Source: Pseudomonas sp. SDI
GTDB lineage: Bacteria > Pseudomonadota > Gammaproteobacteria > Pseudomonadales > Pseudomonadaceae
Direction of reading: 5' to 3'
Length of the DNA stretch: 64,000 nucleotides
NCBI RefSeq assembly: GCF_003105155.1
Contig: NZ_QETK01000016.1
Location: 1 to 64,000, forward strand
Shown one piece after another: positions 28,394-37,692 of this stretch; within the stretch, counting starts at the first letter, position 1; each line of letters begins with the position of its first letter. The notes beneath the pieces are model-generated. The model searched no databases. It was not told the origin of the DNA and saw only the letters and a program-made list of their open reading frames with translations. Both the position numbers and the translations under genes were made by a program.

Positions 28394-28935
28394 CTACTGA
28401 TTCACCGGCCGATACTGCAACGCTTCCGCCACATGCTCGCGTTTCAGGTCTGCCACCTGCTCCAGATCGGCCAGTGTCCGCGCGACCTTCAGTAGCCGAT
28501 GCGCCGCCCGGAGTGACAGTGTCAGCCGTTCGCAGGCGTTTTCCAGCCAGCGCGCATCGGCTGTGGATAACGGACAGTGCGCACGCAGCCCCGGCAAGTC
28601 GAGAAAGGCATTGGCGCAGCCCTGCCGCTGCTGCTGAATCTGCCGCGCCGCCGCCACCCGCGCGGCGACGCTGGCGCTGCTTTCGCCGTTGTGCTCGCCG
28701 GGCGACAGGGCGGTGGGCTCGCGCGCCACGGTCAGGTGCAGGTCGATACGGTCGAGCAGCGGCCCGGACAATTTATTGCGGTAGCGCTGGATCTGCTCGC
28801 TGCCACAGCGGCAACGCCCGCTCGGGTCGCCCAGGTAGCCGCAGGGGCACGGGTTCATCGCCGCCACCAGTTGGAAGCGCGCCGGAAAGCGGATCTTGTC
28901 CTTGGCTCGGGCAATCACGATTTCGCCCGACTCCA
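28394..28935 (-). pseudogene. comM: comM (yifB) C-terminal fragment
   Basis: Encodes the C-terminal part of the Mg-chelatase-like ATPase ComM: ESGEIVIARAKDKIRFPARF, then NPCPCGYLGDPSGRCRCG (the cysteine-rich loop) and the C-terminal AAA lid. It is cut off from its start by the 7.8 kb element and has no natural start codon. Joined to 36741-37692 it gives a continuous 497-residue ComM, the normal length. ComM promotes branch migration during natural transformation. Confidence 0.93.
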
Positions 28936-28961
28936 ATGGTAGGGGTGAATCTCACACATTT
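28931..28961. other. Element attachment site, comM 3' side
   Basis: CTCCA core, then GGTAGGGGTG-AATCTCACACA reading into the element. The same pattern, with small changes, reads inward from the other end, so the two element half-sites are imperfect inverted repeats as expected for a serine-integrase attP. Confidence 0.6.
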
Positions 28962-29062
28962 ACGTCAAGGTTCTGCTCGGATGCTGGATTTGATAAGGTG
29001 GGCGGATCAATGGCGTTCAGCCATCCCAACCTACGAAATAGTGATCAAGGAAGAGGTTCTTG

Positions 29063-29686
29063 ATGAAGAGGAATGTGATTGATCGGAACGGGTTCAATCC
29101 GAATATCGAATTGCCTTATGACTTGAGACTGATCGATTTCGAGCATGCAATGCAGGATGTGTATGATTTTTTTGGTGATGTGAATAACACACTTGCCGGA
29201 AAAGGATTGCGCAGAATGGATGACATGGCCCGACCAGCGATGATGTCTGGCTTAATCTCTGACATGATTACGGCAACTCTGGCTAACTCTTCCAGAACGC
29301 TTGTAGAAAATACCTACTTTAACGGGCATCCCGATTTAGTTAAAAGAGGTGTTTACGCTAATGACTCTGTAAAATCAGGGACTGAGGGAGTTGAAGTAAA
29401 AAGTACTCGTAAAAAAGGTGGTGCAGTCGATACGCATGGCGCTCGCGCCCAATGGATGTGTGTATTTGTGTATGAGATTGATAATGAAACTCAGCCGGTC
29501 AGCGAGCGCTTTCCCATGCAGTTTACCGAGGTCTATCTTTCGTATGTTACGGTCGATGACTTCCGTAGGAACGAACGAGGTGAATTAGGCACGCGAACCG
29601 CAACTCTCCACGCCGAAGGCGTTAAAAAATTGCGGGAAGGCTGGGTGTATAAAGCTCCCTCGCGCGGCCTTTCAACAGGGCGGTAA
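29063..29686 (+). CDS. Probable type II restriction endonuclease, PD-(D/E)XK
   Basis: 207 residues. P90-D91 in FNGHPDLVKRG and E111-V-K113 in GVEVKSTRKKGG are spaced as in PD-(D/E)XK nucleases, with a following strand (WMCVFVYEID). It is convergent with a DNA methyltransferase (3 bases between stops), the arrangement of a type II restriction-modification pair. I start at the ATG at 29063 behind AAGAGG rather than the TTG just before. Recognition sequence unknown. No family name could be assigned beyond the fold, and the assignment leans on context. Confidence 0.68.
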   Translation: MKRNVIDRNGFNPNIELPYDLRLIDFEHAMQDVYDFFGDVNNTLAGKGLRRMDDMARPAMMSGLISDMITATLANSSRTLVENTYFNGHPDLVKRGVYANDSVKSGTEGVEVKSTRKKGGAVDTHGARAQWMCVFVYEIDNETQPVSERFPMQFTEVYLSYVTVDDFRRNERGELGTRTATLHAEGVKKLREGWVYKAPSRGLSTGR

Positions 29687-29689
29687 TGG

Positions 29690-30808
29690 CTAAGCTGGTT
29701 TGACAATCACTGACGCTAATTGTGGAATCGCATCAGCAGCCAATCCGTAAAAGCCTTCGTCGATTTCAAGACCAATGCTGTTATACCCAATCGCATTTGC
29801 AGCCGCGAGGGTCGAACCGCCGCCCATAAACGGATCAAGGATGATGCCTTCGCCAAGAGGTAAAACACCCCTGACCAGTTGGCGCATGAACGCTTGCGGT
29901 TTTAGGGACGGGTGCGGAGCAATTTTTTTCTCCGCGCTTGGCGTTGGGTTAGATCGGATAACGTCCCCAAACGGTTGATCGGCATTTGGTCGGCGGAAGC
30001 CGCCTGTCTTCCATTTGCGAAGATTGTCTTGAACGCGACCTTCAAGCGGTTTCCGCAGAACCACCCACGGCTCCCACTGGGAGCGTGGCATGACTGATAC
30101 GCCTTCAAACTCGTGATGTGCATTCTTGGGGCGATCTCCCCCCCGCATCGTCATTACCTGACGGGCAATGTAGCCGCGAAGTTCAAGGCCCGCTAAACTC
30201 AATGCGTCCGCAACGATATGCGATAGCAGCGGGTTGGATGCGATCACTACGTTTGCGCCAGGCACAAGAACTCGCTCTATCAAACGTCCGAACTTCGTGA
30301 AAAAAGTCCTCAATGCTTCTCTATCCTGATCACTCAAAACAGTGAAGCGTGGAAGCGGTGAGCGAGCGTGACCATCAAAAGATGGAGGAATACGCCAAAT
30401 ACCACCTTGGCCTGAGCGGAGCTTTTCAGTTTCCTTGGTGGTGTATTCAACCAGACCATAAGGCGGATCTGTCACCACGGCATGCACCGAAGCCGCTGGT
30501 TGAGATGCGAGCCAGTCAAAACAGTCAGTATGAACCAGAGTGGCTTGCCCAATGGTCGTGGATGAAACTGGCAAACGAAGCTGGTGAGCAGTGTCAAAAC
30601 CGGGTTGATTCAGGCGATAACGGCCCGGCGCAGTCCGTGAGAACGTCTTGGGGGTGTTCAGGCTCAGGTATGAGCGAACAGACGAGGACGAAACGCTGCC
30701 CAACCTCGGAGAGATTCCTTTCACAATCTCGGCCGGTGAGGCGTCCCCCTCACAGGTTTGGAGGTAGGAAATGATTTTATCTCTGATAGCACCCGGTGCG
30801 ACTGACAT
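29690..30808 (-). CDS. Type II DNA methyltransferase (beta class, N6-A or N4-C) with N-terminal winged-helix domain
   Basis: 372 residues. Motif IV TDPPYGL (D114-P-P-Y117) precedes motif I DPFMGGGST (325-333), and HPSLKPQ lies before it, so the order is that of beta-class amino-methyltransferases. Residues 1-67 (IRDKIISYLQTCEGDASPAE, then SSSVRSYLSLN and GRYRL) look like a winged-helix domain, which could bind DNA and regulate. It protects DNA from the adjacent endonuclease. AAGGAT precedes the ATG. Two GACGTC-rich palindromes cover its promoter. Confidence 0.88.
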   Translation of the reverse strand: MSVAPGAIRDKIISYLQTCEGDASPAEIVKGISPRLGSVSSSSVRSYLSLNTPKTFSRTAPGRYRLNQPGFDTAHQLRLPVSSTTIGQATLVHTDCFDWLASQPAASVHAVVTDPPYGLVEYTTKETEKLRSGQGGIWRIPPSFDGHARSPLPRFTVLSDQDREALRTFFTKFGRLIERVLVPGANVVIASNPLLSHIVADALSLAGLELRGYIARQVMTMRGGDRPKNAHHEFEGVSVMPRSQWEPWVVLRKPLEGRVQDNLRKWKTGGFRRPNADQPFGDVIRSNPTPSAEKKIAPHPSLKPQAFMRQLVRGVLPLGEGIILDPFMGGGSTLAAANAIGYNSIGLEIDEGFYGLAADAIPQLASVIVKPA

Positions 30809-30847
30809 TTTCGTTCATCCTTAATGAGCGAAGTCAGGTTATAGATC

Positions 30848-30887
30848 TGACGTCCAGACGTCAAGATTACCTGACGTCTGGACGTCA
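30848..30887 (-). promoter_or_regulatory. Twin palindromic operators and promoter of the methyltransferase gene
   Basis: TGACGTCCAGACGTCA (30848-30863) and TGACGTCTGGACGTCA (30872-30887) are exact reverse complements of each other, and each is itself a palindrome with a 2-base centre. Their centres are 24 bases apart. Reading toward the gene, TTGACG lies at the edge of the distal copy and TATAAC just beyond the proximal one, 15 bases apart. The proximal palindrome therefore occupies the -35/-10 spacer. The region contains four GACGTC sites. Confidence 0.65.
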
Positions 30888-30913
30888 CAAAAGTCGAAAT
30901 CCCCGCATTGATC

Positions 30914-31052
30914 AGCCGTCAAAGCCACCCAAGCAAGCTTGGGCACCTTTCACGGCTACGCCTTAAAAGCAGCACGAACACATTCGTGCAGGCTGGACAA
31001 ATCCAGCCCAAAGCAGCCCTAACAAGTCAGGGCCAGCCGAACAAGTCCGGCT
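30914..31052. repeat. Array of mini-hairpins with ACANNT loops
   Basis: Non-coding. An outer stem AGCCGTCAAAG/CTTTCACGGCT (30914-30924, 30947-30957, one mismatch) encloses CCCAAGC-AA-GCTTGGG. Then four hairpins follow: GCACGAA/TTCGTGC (30972-30989), GGCTGGA/TCCAGCC (30991-31008), GCCCT/AGGGC (31016-31033) and AGCCG/CGGCT (31035-31052). Their stem sequences differ, but their loops read ACACAT, ACAAAT, ACAAGT, ACAAGT. AAAGCAG precedes the first and third, so a ~43-base two-hairpin unit is duplicated with compensating stem changes. It lies upstream of the relaxase-like gene. Confidence 0.7.
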
Positions 31053-31115
31053 AAAAGCAAAAGCAGACCGAGATCCATTTTTGAAATGTTAAACTGATTA
31101 AGTCCGCATATGGTT

Positions 31116-31183
31116 AACCCGTTGGGCTTATTACCAGACTTAACTTCGTTAAGACGCTTCGCTTCCGGTAATAAGCACGGGTT
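31116..31183. other. Large interrupted stem-loop, candidate oriT or RNA structure
   Basis: AACCCGT (31116-31122) pairs with ACGGGTT (31177-31183), GCTTATTACC (31126-31135) pairs with GGTAATAAGC (31167-31176) across a 3-base bulge, and CTTAAC-TTC-GTTAAG (31139-31153) forms an inner hairpin. It lies 65 bases before the relaxase-like gene, where an oriT is commonly found; the nick site cannot be identified. Confidence 0.5.
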
Positions 31184-31248
31184 CCTTGCCGGAAGGGCAG
31201 AAGCAAAAGCCGTGTGGACTCAAAATTAACTATCAACATGAGGATAAA

Positions 31249-32898
31249 ATGAATGGCAAAAAAATAACTTCAATGATTTTCAAAACGCTGAACTATACGA
31301 ATGAGATCAAGAAAAAATCCACCAATGGGCATGGTGGCCGTCGTCAGTTGTTCAAGAGTCTGCGCCACTCTCTGCGCATTCCAGCAAGCCAGCCCAAGAA
31401 GCTGGAATGGTTCGATGAGCAATCAAACTTAAATCTAATCTGGCTACCAGAAACCGGAACGATAAAGCTCGACGATTATCCGAAGGAAAAGAGGGAAGCA
31501 CTTCTTGCCCAAATAACCGATGAGGCGGAATCACCAACTATCGACAAAAGCAACAGAGCTGAACTTATAGCGCTGCGAGCCAAGCTAAAAAACACGGTAA
31601 AGAATGCCAGTAAGAAAGAAACTGACGAAGGTAGCATCCTTGCCTTTCAGAACATTTTGAACGTGTCAGGCATTGCGGATACTGAACGGCTTCTATCCGA
31701 CCTTGATCAGTTCGATATTAAGCGCAAAAGCCAGAAGCTCGACACTGCAAGGCAGTTTCTCGATTGCCATAACGAGATAGAGCGTGGCCCTAAACCGCTG
31801 ATCAAGAAAAATCAGGCAGTCATCCAAGAAGCGTTCTTCAAGTTTCCTGCTCGAAACGAGGTGAAGGGTATAAGCCCAGAAAAACGCATTGATCTGATTA
31901 AGGACTTTTATCAAGCCGCTTTTCCAAATTACCCGATCCATTTTATCGTCCTGCATGGGGATGAAGACGCAGACCTAACAGATCACAGCGACCACCCGCA
32001 CCTATTTATCTCGACGAAAAACAGTAAAACCGGGCGTTATGATTTGCGTGAAACACAAATCAAATTAGTGAATGCCTACCTTGATAAGGTTAGACCTGGA
32101 ACAGATCACATCAGCGAAAAGCCAGATTATTTGGAGTCCCAACTTTTATTCGGCTATTTGCAAGATATGTTCTATGCGCACACCAATAACAAACTTTTGA
32201 AAAACACTCTTTATCGTGCCCAAAAGCACGAAAAAACTCAGGAGCACATGAGCAAGCTCAGATATATCAACGGAGAGGCAAGAAAGCCTAAATCAGAACG
32301 CGAATTTAGCTTATATCAGCAGGTAAAAGAAAAAAGAGATCAGGCACAAAAACAAGCAGCCGAAGCGAAGGACTTCACCCAAAAAGCCAAGCAATACGTG
32401 TCCACACAGATCTCAAAGGCAGAGCAGGCCAAGAAGTCTGCAAAGGACGCCGCAGAGCGTCAGAGGCTTGCAGAACAGGCCACAGCCGAAGAATACGAAC
32501 AAGCCGATGCTTATCGTCGTAGATCTGCTATTAGCCAGCAGACAATCGTGAACAATACTGCTGAATCCGCCCGCATCCGTGCCGAGATAGCCCGCGAGCA
32601 AGCGACGTTAGAGCTATTCAGGACGAATCTATCCCATCTGATAGATGGCGTAGTTGGATGGATCGGCGAGCTTTTTGCAGATAGACGCAAAGAGATCCAA
32701 GATAAATTCCTCAAACAAGCTCAAAGCGCTTTTGAACGAGTTGCTACAAATGATAAGACGAAAGAAAAGAAATATACCAAGACTGCCGAAATCGAGGTCG
32801 ATAATCAACTAACTGTATTGGATAAATATCAGGAGATTTTCCCTGACATTCCAAAATCCAATGAGGTAAGGAGGATGATAATCAAACCAAAAAATTAG
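31249..32898 (+). CDS. Relaxase-like mobilization protein with C-terminal coiled coil
   Basis: 549 residues. Residues 226-262 read YPIHFIVLHGDEDADL... with H236-x-D-E and then H249-P-H251 in DHPHLFISTKN. This is the histidine triad (motif III) of HUH relaxases and resembles MobV/Mob-Pre and MobQ proteins. The second half is a long, charged, helical coiled coil (KEKRDQAQKQAAEAKDFTQK...). A relaxase would nick at an oriT and start conjugal mobilization; a structured block lies just upstream. GAGGA precedes the ATG at 31249. The overall family is not firmly recognised, so the call rests on the motif and plasmid-like context. Confidence 0.6.
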   Translation: MNGKKITSMIFKTLNYTNEIKKKSTNGHGGRRQLFKSLRHSLRIPASQPKKLEWFDEQSNLNLIWLPETGTIKLDDYPKEKREALLAQITDEAESPTIDKSNRAELIALRAKLKNTVKNASKKETDEGSILAFQNILNVSGIADTERLLSDLDQFDIKRKSQKLDTARQFLDCHNEIERGPKPLIKKNQAVIQEAFFKFPARNEVKGISPEKRIDLIKDFYQAAFPNYPIHFIVLHGDEDADLTDHSDHPHLFISTKNSKTGRYDLRETQIKLVNAYLDKVRPGTDHISEKPDYLESQLLFGYLQDMFYAHTNNKLLKNTLYRAQKHEKTQEHMSKLRYINGEARKPKSEREFSLYQQVKEKRDQAQKQAAEAKDFTQKAKQYVSTQISKAEQAKKSAKDAAERQRLAEQATAEEYEQADAYRRRSAISQQTIVNNTAESARIRAEIAREQATLELFRTNLSHLIDGVVGWIGELFADRRKEIQDKFLKQAQSAFERVATNDKTKEKKYTKTAEIEVDNQLTVLDKYQEIFPDIPKSNEVRRMIIKPKN

Positions 32899-33094
32899 GC
32901 GCACAAAAAACAAACCCCTTAAAATTTGCACTTTAAAGGGTAAATGTTAGTTTATATAAAGGAGTAGAGATTACGGGCCGGCAAGCTATTTAATTTCTAC
33001 ATTATCTGATTGCTAATTCAGTTTAACATTTAAGAATTCAGTTGCAAGGGTAAAACGTAATCTTCTCCTAAAAATAATAATTTTAGAGGAGAAT
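32899..33094 (+). promoter_or_regulatory. Leader of the rep gene with sequestered ribosome site
   Basis: In this 196-base gap TTCTCC (33063-33068) pairs with GGAGAA (33088-33093) and TAAAA with TTTTA inside, so the ribosome site of rep is folded into a hairpin ending one base before the ATG. Another stem (CCCTTAAA with TTTAAAGGG, one bulge) lies at 32916-32940. ColE2-type plasmids control Rep by an antisense RNA on the leader; no antisense promoter could be pinned down. Confidence 0.5.
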
Positions 33095-34102
33095 ATGCGT
33101 GATACCGAAACAGCCCTTGAACTTTACAAGTCAAAACTTCCACCAAAACCATACCATACGAACAACTATACATTCGGCAAGCAAGTCGGCTCTTTAAATT
33201 CAGCTTTGAAGGCTACTTATCTTCAACCTAATTCATTAACCCATAAATATTTTATAATCTTGGATTTGGATAGTGATATGAGTGTGCTTGATTGGTCAGA
33301 TAAAGGCTTGCCACCGCCGCATCTGATAGTCAGAAATCTGGATAATGGTCGCTCCCACATGACATACATACTAAATACATCCGTCAAAATCGACGTGAGT
33401 GGCCGTTTAAAGCCTCTTAAATACTGCTCTGATGTAGAGCATGGGCTTGCAGTCAGAGTAGGCGCAGATATGAACTACAACGGGCTGCTGACAAAGAATC
33501 CATTTAACTCATCTGCCTTTAAAGTTCTTTCATTCGCTGATCAGCCGTATGACCTGGACTACCTAAACGAATTTGTAGATAAAGATCTCGTCAAAAAACA
33601 ACGCGAAGCCAAAAAGAAGAAAAACATAGAGGATGGTTTTGCATCTGGTAGGAACTGCACTCTGTTCGACAATTTGCGAGTCTGGGCATATAACAATTGG
33701 CAGCACCATCACCCCGCAGAGCTGCAATCAGTGATCCATGAACAGGCGGAGCAATTCAATAACTTTGAGTGTCAATTAGGGCGCAGAGAGGTTGATACCA
33801 TTGCTGATAGCGTCTATCGCTTTGTAAACCGTAATTTCTCAATAGAAAGGCTTAATGAGTTGAAAAGCGAGAGGGCTAAACAGTCGAGGCAGAAAAGCTC
33901 TGCAAATCTTATCTATGTCGATAGCAAGCCTTGGGAAGAAGAAGGTATTCCGAAAAGGACTTATTATTATAGAAAGGAGAATAATGTGGATGCGGAACGT
34001 CCGATAGAGGCACAAAATAAGCCTTGGGAGAAAATGAATATGAGCCGCAGAACGTATTACAGGAAGAAAAGCCAAGGTCTAATTGAAGTGAGTGGTGTGT
34101 AA
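33095..34102 (+). CDS. Replication initiation protein, ColE2-type Rep
   Basis: 335 residues. YFIILDLDSDMSVLDW, then LPPPHLIVRNLDNGRSHMTY and GLAVRVGADMNYNGLLTKNP, are characteristic of the ColE2/replicase family (primase-type Rep that makes a primer at ori). The C-terminus carries two copies of a KPWE...RTYYRK motif (KPWEEEGIPKRTYYYRK and KPWEKMNMSRRTYYRKK), resembling the helix-turn-helix tail of such proteins. Rep would allow theta replication of the excised circle. AGAGGAG precedes the ATG. Confidence 0.85.
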   Translation: MRDTETALELYKSKLPPKPYHTNNYTFGKQVGSLNSALKATYLQPNSLTHKYFIILDLDSDMSVLDWSDKGLPPPHLIVRNLDNGRSHMTYILNTSVKIDVSGRLKPLKYCSDVEHGLAVRVGADMNYNGLLTKNPFNSSAFKVLSFADQPYDLDYLNEFVDKDLVKKQREAKKKKNIEDGFASGRNCTLFDNLRVWAYNNWQHHHPAELQSVIHEQAEQFNNFECQLGRREVDTIADSVYRFVNRNFSIERLNELKSERAKQSRQKSSANLIYVDSKPWEEEGIPKRTYYYRKENNVDAERPIEAQNKPWEKMNMSRRTYYRKKSQGLIEVSGV

Positions 34103-34200
34103 TTTGGCACTAAAGTTGCACTTTTACTATATCAGGGATAATAGCCCCGTAGGGGGAGTATCTTGGCGAGGATTTATCCCAGTTCATAGGTAAGTTTCGG
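34103..34200 (+). other. Candidate replication origin downstream of rep
   Basis: In ColE2-type plasmids ori lies directly after rep. Here a short segment contains TTGGCACTAAAG/TTGCACTTTT near-repeats, TATCAGGGATAATAGCCCCG, a CCCC-GTA-GGGG hairpin and CTTGGCG. The arrangement is reminiscent of such an ori, but this is from memory of the family and unverified. Confidence 0.35.
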
Positions 34201-34228
34201 AAAATAAAAGCCGCCCATCTAAGGCGGT
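34201..34228 (-). terminator. Terminator of the prepilin gene
   Basis: On the minus strand CCGCC-(7 bases)-GGCGG is followed by CTTTTATTTT, directly after the prepilin stop. Confidence 0.7.
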
Positions 34229-34244
34229 CATTTATCCATTATAT

Positions 34245-34802
34245 TTATGTTCCGGTTCCACCATTAGCGTTCTCTCTGACGAAATCCAAACTGATTACTC
34301 CGCTTCCATTACTTCCGCAGTTTGTCGATACGTCGGATATCTTATAATCTTCATTATATTTTACGTTGCCGTCGATTACGCTATCCCAGCCAACTGCTTT
34401 CTGAGCTTTAACAATATTTGCACAGACTTCGCCTCTCGGAATGTTTGTGTAGGTTACAGTGAAACCACTGGGGGTTTGTCCTGAGATAGTTACCTTGCCA
34501 CCGAATACATTCTGAACATCAGTGCTGCCCTTGGCTGTTTTTAAACTGCTTGGATAAATTCCAAGGTTCATTGCTAATGTATTTCCACCAGATGTCAATT
34601 GCGCAGTATCTTCCGATGCAAATAGTTGCTCAGTTTGGGCGAAAATTGTTGATAGTTCTTTGTTGACAGTTGATGCGTTGCTTGAATTTCTCGATTGGGA
34701 GTAAAGTGCGAATACCCCAGCAACCACTGCCGCAAATATTGCGAACCAGATTAACGCTTCAATTAAGGTAAGACCCGCGAGGTCTTTTTTGTTTTTTATC
34801 AT
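34245..34802 (-). CDS. Orphan class IVb-type prepilin (PilS-like)
   Basis: 185 residues. A short basic leader (KNKKDLAG) and cleavage motif G/LTLIEALIWFAIFAAVVAG are those of type IV pilins with the conserved Glu at +5. The body is typical of PilS-like plasmid and bundle-forming pilins, with two cysteines (C132 and C165) near the C-terminus as in the D-loop. No prepilin peptidase, ATPase or platform gene lies in the element, so it must use host machinery or do something else. There is no recognisable ribosome site and an in-frame stop closely precedes the ATG; a GTTATATATAAC palindrome lies in the promoter area. Confidence 0.8.
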   Translation of the reverse strand: MIKNKKDLAGLTLIEALIWFAIFAAVVAGVFALYSQSRNSSNASTVNKELSTIFAQTEQLFASEDTAQLTSGGNTLAMNLGIYPSSLKTAKGSTDVQNVFGGKVTISGQTPSGFTVTYTNIPRGEVCANIVKAQKAVGWDSVIDGNVKYNEDYKISDVSTNCGSNGSGVISLDFVRENANGGTGT

Positions 34803-34927
34803 TGTTGTGATTTTTTGTTATATATAACATGCTATCACTTATTTTTTATAAATAGCCTTGCTATTGGAAATTGAAATGTTAACCTAAATGTAGCTTGTGT
34901 TTTTTGTTGTTATTAAACTGAGCCACT

Positions 34928-34951
34928 AAACCGCCGTAAGGCGGTTTTTTT
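34928..34951 (+). terminator. Hairpin with T-tract between prepilin and recombinase genes
   Basis: AAACCGCC-GTAA-GGCGGTTT followed by a run of T, reading plus. No plus-strand gene ends here; it may block antisense transcription of the recombinase. The rest of the 167-base gap (34803-34969) shows nothing else. Confidence 0.6.
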
Positions 34952-34969
34952 GATCGATGAAACTAATGC

Positions 34970-36685
34970 TTAATTGAAGTATTGGTTCAAGTTGTCAATG
35001 CCGTATTCTTTCAGCGGATTGTGCAGGTTGAACTGCTTGGCGATTAAATCTACGAACCTGCCTTCGTGATAGATTTTGCCATAAAGCGTCCTTGTTGATT
35101 TTTCAAATTGAAGTTTGAATACGATATCATTGTTTATAAAGAACTGATTTAGTCGCAGTCGGCCCTGCTCAGTCTTATACAGGTCAATAATGTCATTTTC
35201 AGAGTAAATGTTTATTGCTGTTCTTTTGGTATTTATCTCTGCTTGCAGCTTTGATAGGGCTAATTCTGTCTCGCTGATTTTTAGCTCTGTCTTACTGACT
35301 ACCTCTAAAAATTCTGCTGGGATAATTCCGCTGGTAAAACCTGAAAATGATTTAAGCAGGTTCTCTTTGTAACTTTTTTGCTCCAATAGTAGATTGTTTA
35401 GTTCGTAGGCTTTTTTATTGTCAGCGGCTTTGCTGGTCTTGCTGGAAAGTAGTTTGAATAATAGATCTCTGAAATTTGTGTTTGCGTCTTCTTCCTCAAT
35501 GGCTCGTTCCTCGCTCATTGGAGGCTCATCGTCTGGTATCTGTAACTGCCAAGGGTGCGGGTCGAAGTCTTCTCTGGTTGTCGCTTGATAGATCAGTTCC
35601 AAGAGCAGGCCGAAAGCCAAGTCGAAACGAAAACGAGGTTGATCACAACCATTCTTCAATTCTTTTCGGGTGAAACAGTGAAAATACGGGTAAATTATTC
35701 CCTTGGGATTCCTCTGTTTTTCAAAAAGCATTGAGGTATTGCAGCACTGGCATTTAATAACATGCCTGAAAATGTTCAGGCTTCCGACTGTTTGATTACC
35801 ATAATGCTTTCTGTCAGCCCGGTTTTTCATAGCTTGAACGGCACTGTTAAAAAGCTCGTATGAGACGATTTGTGGATAATAGTTTTCCACATAACGCTCA
35901 AATACCTTTCTTTTGTTTTCGTCCCTACGCTGCGCCATATAAGCGCCAAGGGGGTATTTCGTTTGTAGTAGGTGCTGGACGTTTTTATTAGTCCATTTTC
36001 TTTTTGAATATTCGTTGAGTTTTTTAATCGTTAGCGAAACGCCTACATGCTGCAAGCTCTCAAAAATATCCCGTATTTCTTTGGCCTCTTCTTCGATGAT
36101 CTCGAATTTATCTTCATCGCTGTTGTAACTAATGCCGTATGGAGGATTGTGCCCGTTGAAAATTTCCTTTTCATCCTGAGCCAATTTCTTGGCCCTATTC
36201 CATGCGGATTTACGGCGGATAGACTTCGTGCGGCTTTCTTCGTGCGCTCGCTTGGCTATTACGCTGAGCAATATATCTTGCTGTAAATCGTCGATGCGGT
36301 TGGTTTCGTTGGGCTTTTCATATCTTTGGCCGTCAATTGTGGTGATCAATATCACGCCTTTTTCCAATATGCCGTTAACAAGCTCTTTTGCTTGTAGCAG
36401 CCTTTGGCGGCTTAACCGATCAATACTTTCAACAAATATAAAGTCGCCCGGCTTAATGTGAACGTCATTAAGCATCTCGATTATGTGCTTTAACTTGCCT
36501 TTCCGAGTGTTGCTACCGTCATGGGCAGAAATCCCCGTATCAGAGAAAATGTTCTCCGGCAGCAGCTCAATGCCCTGTTGCTTGGTAATGGCTTGGATCG
36601 AAGCCATTTGACGGTCTACGGAGTCCTTGCCAGCCTCGCCTTGGGCTTTGGACGAGTAACGAATGTAGGCGTATGCCGTGGCCAT
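34970..36685 (-). CDS. Large serine recombinase (integrase)
   Basis: 571 residues. Resolvase-type catalytic domain at the N-terminus: the nucleophile is S11 or S12 in [11 protein letters not shown], with the conserved arginines in [10 protein letters not shown]. The recombinase domain follows (about 180-290: [20 protein letters not shown]). A zinc ribbon has C312 and C315 in CQCC, C337 and C347. A coiled coil follows near 420-520. This enzyme integrates and excises the element at comM. The ATG at 36685 follows AGGAGG and starts [12 protein letters not shown]; it lies only 51 bases inside the element, leaving little room for an own promoter, so the comM promoter may drive it while integrated. 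Confidence 0.95.
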
Positions 36686-36705
36686 CGCGGGCCTCCTGTC
36701 GCACC

Positions 36706-36740
36706 TGAGAAAATGTGAGAATACCACCCACCGTTCTCCA
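36706..36740. other. Element attachment site, comM 5' side
   Basis: From the comM side the minus strand reads TGGAG, then AACGGTGGGTGGTATTCTCA and CATTTTC. The GGTGGGTG-ATTCTCACA part mirrors the other end, supporting these edges. Confidence 0.6.
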
Positions 36741-37692
36741 GTGGCTCGCGCAGCACTTCCAGCACCCGTCGTTCGAACTCGGGCAATTCATCGAGAAACA
36801 GTACGCCGTGATGGGCCAGGGTAATTTCCCCTGGCTGCGGGCGGCTGCCGCCGCCGACCAGGGCGGCACCGGAGGCCGAATGGTGCGGGTGGCGAAAGGG
36901 GCGCTGGGGCCAACTGCTCAGTGGCACCGGGCTGGCCACCGACTGGATCGCCGCCACTTCCAGCGCTTCGCGTTCATCCAGCGCCGGCAGCAGGCCGGGC
37001 AGGCGGCTGGCGAGCAGGGTCTTGCCAGTGCCGGGCGGGCCGCTGAACAACAGATTGTGCGCCCCGGCCGCCGCGATCAGCAGGGCGCGTTTGGCCGCCA
37101 ACTGGCCCTGCACCTCGCAGAGGTCGGGGTAGGGTCGGCTGTGCAGTAGCAGGCCGTTAGCCTGATAGGCGTTGAGCGGCTGTTGGCCACTGAGGTGGCC
37201 GACCAGTTCCAGCAGGTGCTCGACCGCATACACGACCAGCCCCGAGGCCAGGCAGGCTTCTTCGGCATTCTCTTTGGGGACCACCAGTGCGCGCCCGGCC
37301 TCACGGGCGGCCAGCGCCGCTGGCAGCACGCCCTGCACGGGTCGTAGGGCGCCGGACAGGGCCAGCTCGCCGAGGCATTCGATGCCGTGCAGCGCTGCCG
37401 CAGGCATCTGCCCATTGGCCGCAAGGATGCCCAGGGCGATGGCCAGGTCGAAGCGTCCACCGTCCTTGGGCAGGTCGGCGGGGGCGAGGTTGAGGGTGAT
37501 GCGCCGGGCGGGGAATTCCAGGCCTGAATTGAGGATCGCGCTGCGAACGCGGTCTTTGCTTTCCTTGACCGTGGCTTCGGGCAGGCCGACCAGGGTCAGC
37601 GCTGGCAGGCCGTTGGCCAGGTGTGCTTCGACGATGACAGCGGGGGCCAGTACGCCGACCTGGGCGCGGCTGTGGACAAGGGCAAGGGACAT
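36741..37692 (-). pseudogene. comM: comM (yifB) N-terminal fragment
   Basis: Residues 1 to about 317 of ComM: the N-terminal ChlI domain ([20 protein letters not shown]), Walker [17 protein letters not shown] and Walker [10 protein letters not shown], ending at LREPL. Translation then runs into the element and stops at 36616 after about 42 foreign codons. The start at 37692 gives the family N-terminus. The missing part is at 28394-28935. Confidence 0.93.

Follow-up and report, generated by a model that had tools for sequence, protein, structure and literature searches.

The competence gene comM of Pseudomonas sp. SDI lies in two pieces on contig NZ_QETK01000016.1 (assembly GCF_003105155.1), which raises the question of what kind of mobile DNA separates them and how it could move. 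Positions 1 to 64,000 of the forward strand of this contig were analyzed and are called the window. Deletion of 28936-36740 rejoins the pieces into a single open ComM frame of 497 codons from the ATG, and comM is interrupted at codon 317 by a 7,805-bp insert; the preliminary description, made from the letters of the window, had the two fragments and the restored 497-residue ComM in place. The insert carries an integrase, a plasmid replication initiator and a predicted relaxase. It is very probably an integrative and mobilizable plasmid, in other words an integrative and mobilizable element (IME) still carrying a ColE2-type plasmid replicon. The features on which this reading rests are as follows (window coordinates).

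28394-28936, minus strand: C-terminal comM fragment, codons 318-497 with stop; Pfam Mg_chelatase and Mg_chelatase_C; frame restored
28931-28935, no strand: CTCCA at the junction with the C-terminal comM fragment; core at 28932-28933, TC on the plus strand and GA in the comM direction
28936-28966, no strand: attP arm next to the C-terminal comM fragment; conserved in other elements, forms an imperfect inverted repeat with the other arm
31116-31183, plus strand: conserved hairpin upstream of the relaxase gene, three nested helices; candidate origin of transfer (oriT)
31249-32898, plus strand: predicted MOBV-like relaxase, 549 residues, outside curated families; fold, invariant motifs
33095-34105, plus strand: Replicase-family (ColE2-type) replication initiator; PF03090, E 7e-30
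34128-34155, plus strand: ColE2-like origin candidate; core found behind rep in 18 of 20 loci, like one free plasmid
34970-36685, minus strand: large serine recombinase (LSR), 571 residues; Resolvase and Recombinase above cut-off
36706-36735, no strand: attP arm next to the N-terminal comM fragment; conserved in other elements, forms an imperfect inverted repeat with the other arm
36736-36740, no strand: CTCCA at the junction with the N-terminal comM fragment; core at 36737-36738
36742-37692, minus strand: N-terminal comM fragment, codons 1-317; Pfam ChlI and Mg_chelatase; frame restored without the insert

Junctions in comM and the integrase

CTCCA alone is weak evidence for the ends of the insert because the window holds 45 and 54 copies on its two strands. 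Three things go beyond chance: the deletion restores the frame exactly, GC content drops to 40-53% in the insert from ~65% in its surroundings, and other genomes carry different cargo at the same codon. A search of the 74-contig SDI draft genome with the N-terminal part of comM found no second, intact copy, and the other match to this query was 32% over 78 residues only. The break would be expected to abolish ComM function. Of the same-genus relatives, 15 were searched; 14 have an uninterrupted comM, and in the remaining one (G014; L120 1133-10749) the gene is split at codon ~215. This split, in the same comM region as in L063, is due to an insert of 9.3 kb whose LSR-type gene is short (389 residues) and differs from the LSR of the window; the insert has no match to the relaxase profile.

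Read in the comM direction, attP of the window is ATGTGTGAGATTCACCCCTACCATTG-GA-GAACGGTGGGTGGTATTCTCACATT, an imperfect inverted repeat. The contiguous bases common to both element ends in MF4836 and G255 are GA only, and CTCCA in the window is thus read as a 2-bp core with chance matches beside it. The flanking 5-base repeat of the preliminary description stands as CTCCA on both sides and falls as a 5-bp duplication. By its sequence, the junction is of the LSR type, with GA as the 2-bp core and an inverted repeat like that of an attP around it. The Zn_ribbon_recom domain of the LSR falls just under its cut-off (24.5 bits vs 25.3).

A whole-genome search located relatives of the LSR (E ≤ 1e-30) at 24 places in 22 of 398 Pseudomonas genomes, and single-protein scans with the LSR against genome or viral contigs returned no relative. 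Flanks were read for 18 of these places, leaving out six weak ones (G184, G024, G095, G032, G343 and G073:C3). Six of the 18, the window's included, are at comM codon 317, and a seventh element at this codon, in P. fildesensis, was found through the relaxase search. The total is seven elements in seven genomes with differing cargo, all entering at codon 317. The two refuting conditions named in the preliminary description, an intact comM elsewhere in the genome and homologous elements with edges far from the CTCCA repeats, were checked and did not overturn its reading. Both junctions are visible in six of the seven; the contig of G211 stops inside the element. The integrase gene begins 57-58 bp inside the junction and is co-directional with comM in the window, MF4836, G201, G255 and P. 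fildesensis, an arrangement in which comM transcription may reach the integrase gene. The integrase gene of G211 is on the comM C side. The SDI genome has a second serine recombinase gene (G000 contig C6 117149-118102) with 28% identity over 2-327.

Two further comM sites, codons ~67 (MF4836) and ~216 (G168), are occupied by LSR elements with the relaxase family of the window. In MF4836 (L024 2106-19103) two LSR elements interrupt the same comM, one at codon 317 and the other at ~67, and their relaxases differ. ComM-type (Mg-chelatase) genes are the target of 12.4% of predicted site-specific LSRs according to PMC10083194. The elements treated there share the target family with the insert (Mg-chelatase/ATP-dependent protease genes, ComM-type by Pfam); a relaxase, a replicon and the family of the window are absent from the description given in the consulted part of that source. 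AbaR-type islands are also reported to insert into this gene in Acinetobacter (PMC11472951), and an insertion in it has been reported once in Pseudomonas syringae (PMC4774983, PMC11472951). The parallel with AbaR drawn in the preliminary description holds for comM as the shared, broken target and not for kinship of the element: AbaR is described as Tn7-like, and a scan for Tn7-like transposition genes gave no transposase match among the six insert proteins.

The replicon and the predicted relaxase

The ColE2-type rep of the preliminary description is confirmed by its PF03090 match; PriCT_1 scores 17.9 bits, under the cut-off of 21.1. Origins of the ColE2 type are usually located directly behind repA (PMC2831885), and the candidate in the window, TATATCAGGGATAATAGCCCCGTAGGGG, is similar to TATATCAGATAACAGCCCC in pEC881_7, a free E. 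coli plasmid that has this motif ~440 bp after rep. The core occurs once in the window vs none expected. It lies behind rep in all rep-bearing loci except L102 (one base off) and L108. Relatives of Rep are present in 2,802 plasmid records.

The 549-residue protein has no match at E ≤ 0.1 in Pfam, NCBIfam, PHROGs or PADLOC. No family member exceeds the cut-off of Pfam Mob_Pre, and the protein was not filed as a Mob_Pre member for this reason; one of 16 members matches at E 7e-4. A fold comparison was used because the relaxase profile gave coiled-coil matches only against PDB sequences. The top Foldseek match of the AlphaFold2 model (pLDDT 80.4, pTM 0.50) is the MobM relaxase domain (prob 0.99, E 0.014), and VIA-align superimposes the two with Z 14.6 and a root mean square deviation of 3.3 over 182 aligned residues. 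The first nine rows of the structural comparison are all relaxases (Z 14.6 to 8.1), followed by an HUH Rep domain at 6.3; they include MobM, MobA of R1162, TrwC and 4ht4, which we take to be the NES relaxase. Residues H40, R43, H236, D238, E239, H249 and H251, which form HxxR, HxDE and HxH motifs, are invariant in all 36 aligned proteins (the window and 35 of the 37 named loci of the family, the partial or broken L088 and L095 being left out). H40 is presumably the counterpart of the MobM nicking histidine. The protein and MobM of pMV158 (MOBV; PDB 4lvj) share the catalytic-domain fold and the HUH motif and differ in sequence (12% identity), in a helical insertion and in the lack of a Mob_Pre match above cut-off. 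The model and the motif set support the assignment of this protein as a MOBV-like relaxase; the preliminary description had called the gene relaxase-like.

The hairpin upstream of this gene is an oriT candidate that could act as DNA or as RNA. Across the seven nearest sequences, whose kinship inflates such counts, 96.3% of cells pair and four of 23 pairs are changed on both sides. The covariation score and the number of paired cells were each matched by 0 of 500 shuffles, and pairing falls to 30-43% when the partners are slid. The hairpin DNA has no match on plasmids, and Rfam has no match anywhere in the element. A row of short hairpins lies at 30928-31060, also upstream of the relaxase gene; several have a common loop like ACAARTC on differing stems, and they also occur in nearby relatives.

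Distribution of the family and its cargo

The relaxase profile matches 15 of 398 Pseudomonas genomes, and the 37 named loci of the family come from Pseudomonas, Stutzerimonas, Shewanella, Vibrio and others. In 25 of the 37 loci (17 serine, eight tyrosine) the 3 kb before the relaxase gene contain an integrase of the profiled kinds, and within 8 kb there is a Replicase-type (ColE2-type) Rep in 18, Rep_3 in one and PilS in five. The integrase profiles were partly built from the same loci and match those by construction; Pfam confirms the integrases of L072, L079, L083, L084, L102, L104 and L063. The serine calls in L098 and L099 (same strain) are C-terminal ends at contig edges only. Six of the 12 loci without an integrase call have less than 3 kb upstream, L089 has a tyrosine integrase by Pfam that the profiles missed, and L076 has none upstream and a tyrosine recombinase in two frames downstream (L066); L091, L092, L093 and L096 remain.

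Five of the six nearest relatives of the relaxase (62-74% identity) are accompanied by another LSR clade, 24% identical to the LSR of the window where measured, and the sixth has no LSR. The three nearest LSRs (76%) are those of MF4836, G201 and P. fildesensis. The MF4836 and G201 elements carry a PF03432-type relaxase unrelated to that of the window, G201 with a NikA/MobC-like protein in addition, and the P. fildesensis element carries a distant relative of the window relaxase and no rep call. From these pairings, integrases appear to have been exchanged within the family, as judged from identities and gene content.

Only two of 72,556 plasmid records contain the relaxase, the same two with three different queries, and the family seems to live mostly in chromosomes rather than on free plasmids. 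One is a 2.1-Mb Photobacterium record. The other is the free 3,998-bp Vibrio plasmid pSTUT-A16-2 (NZ_AP026768.1), typed non-mobilizable, which has relaxase then rep on the same strand and from the same two families; it differs by its low identities (28% and 25% for relaxase and rep) and in having no integrase among its four annotated genes. This pair in the same order supports the proposal of the preliminary description that a small mobilizable plasmid gained a comM-specific integrase. A relaxase of the family is also found on L086, a whole 4,206-bp contig filed as Mycobacterium that may be a contaminant.

The remaining features of the insert are as follows.

29063-29686, plus strand: putative restriction endonuclease whose gene converges on that of the methyltransferase; PADLOC match weak (E 3e-4)
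29690-30808, minus strand: type II DNA methyltransferase; Pfam N6_N4 methylase
30848-30887, no strand: two palindromes of 16 bp that together contain four GACGTC sites, upstream of the methyltransferase gene
34245-34802, minus strand: PilS-type prepilin; sole PF08805 match in the SDI genome

Of the restriction-modification noted earlier in the insert, the methyltransferase has its Pfam match and the endonuclease is putative; the structure model of the endonuclease is worthless (pLDDT 32.5). Small plasmids such as pCAV1321-4938 carry an endonuclease relative up to 72% identical, convergent beside a 67% identical methylase, and because the pair is conserved in this way it is probably a real restriction-modification module. 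The only four GACGTC sites of the element are those of the palindromes, and three occur within 80 bp upstream of the pCAV1321-4938 methyltransferase gene (L121 901-2019; sites at L121 821, 843 and 851); GACGTC is a candidate recognition or self-regulation site. The orphan prepilin of the preliminary description is a PilS. Its single match on plasmids is to a conjugative Salmonella plasmid (30%). Similar orphan genes lie beside the relaxase-rep core in L061, L069, L074, L079, L081, L088 and L105, some of these being the same genome under two ids.

Proposed movement and competing explanations

The insert shares with IMEs an integrase of its own with att sites and, by fold and motif only, a relaxase of its own. 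The LSR would join attP of the circle to attB at comM codon 317 and split the gene, a reaction for which site and core are read from the junctions. The excised circle could replicate from the origin behind rep, and the hairpin that precedes the relaxase gene would be the place where the MobM-like enzyme nicks the DNA. An incoming conjugative element would supply the mating pore because none was found in the SDI draft genome, which has no match to the mating-pore and coupling-protein families PF02534, PF10412 or PF03135 (VirD4/TrwB/VirB4). The restriction-modification pair may stabilise or defend the element, and the PilS pilin might conceivably alter the pilus of the helper. Insertions in competence genes have been argued to shield mobile DNA from removal (PMC4774983, PMC11472951); under this published hypothesis, the broken comM would lower natural transformation and protect the element.

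Several points weigh against this reading. Circle, excision, replication and transfer are all deduced and none was observed, no excision factor was identified, and with no resident helper in the SDI genome the insert could at present be stranded. The relaxase stays under every curated cut-off, with a Foldseek E-value of 0.014 for its MobM match. The hairpin statistics come from the seven related sequences only; in these, one pair is broken in six of seven, and among 500 shuffles 29 had as many doubly changed pairs and 493 as many further pair types. The origin motif was present in one of four free plasmid sequences scanned, and in 18 of the 37 loci, a few of which are cut by contig ends, the visible stretch contains no Rep and no Rep_3.

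The absence of Rep from these loci would suit an IME with a dead replicon, in which rep and origin are plasmid leftovers and only integration and transfer matter. Two comM-317 relatives of the LSR clade with other cargo use other Rep types, and the relaxase-bearing P. fildesensis element has no rep call. Rep is intact, however, and the conserved motif behind it points to use, which makes this explanation unlikely, if the strongest of the alternatives. Slightly less likely is a stranded insertion that is no longer mobile. The lack of a mating-pore or coupling-protein match in the SDI genome and of a known excision factor favors it, whereas all six genes are open, the attP arms are intact, relatives are scattered over species, and the nearest relatives have a whole comM. 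It is improbable that the 549-residue protein is not a relaxase and the hairpin just upstream is an RNA leader of its gene; the unmet family cut-offs and the Foldseek E-value would allow this, and the nine leading relaxase rows, the invariant motif set and the single Mob_Pre match speak against it. A DDE-type transposon leaving a 5-bp target duplication, as AbaR-type islands do in the same gene (PMC11472951), was suggested by CTCCA on both sides and rejected as scarcely credible, given the GA-only core in relatives, the lack of a transposase match among the six insert proteins scanned, the attP inverted repeat and the LSR gene at the element edge.

The integrative and mobilizable plasmid remains the preferred reading, and this kind of element is already known, as are LSRs aimed at comM-type genes (PMC10083194). 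The review PMC5704250 describes IMEs with a serine recombinase that share with the insert the LSR, a short direct repeat, disruption of a dispensable gene, an own relaxase and the lack of a mating pore, and notes that some IMEs carry rep genes and type II restriction-modification; the Rep types it gives for IMEs, in the part consulted, omit the ColE2 type. That 2017 review calls replication of excised IMEs unstudied, a statement now dated because replication of SGI1 is the subject of a 2020 paper (PMC7433901). Among the papers listed in searches by title and abstract opening, which did not extend to subscription papers or preprints, none dealt with the element family. Within the literature searched, the relaxase family, its integrating ColE2-type replicon in Pseudomonas and the exchange of integrases are new.

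A broader joint reading is plausible and is held tentatively. The family would be a gammaproteobacterial plasmid lineage now resident in chromosomes, with a core of oriT-like hairpin, non-curated relaxase and, frequently, a replicon of ColE2 type; plasmid collections contain almost none of it, and where it is seen in them it is typed non-mobilizable. It would spread by swaps of integrases (several LSR clades, tyrosine recombinases), and its different LSRs would converge on comM codons ~67, ~216 and 317. The integrase at codon 317 could be expressed from comM transcription, which would couple excision or stability of the element to the competence gene.

Detection of mobilizable elements usually relies on the relaxase, and a family under all cut-offs in the four profile libraries tried escapes it. 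The result is a hidden set of small elements, present in 15 of 398 Pseudomonas genomes and with a plasmid carrier typed non-mobilizable. Replicon, relaxase and exchangeable integrase on one 8-kb element make replication and transfer of an excised IME directly testable, and the three separate comM sites amount to an experiment of nature on the published proposal that mobile DNA, by disrupting comM, escapes removal by transformation.

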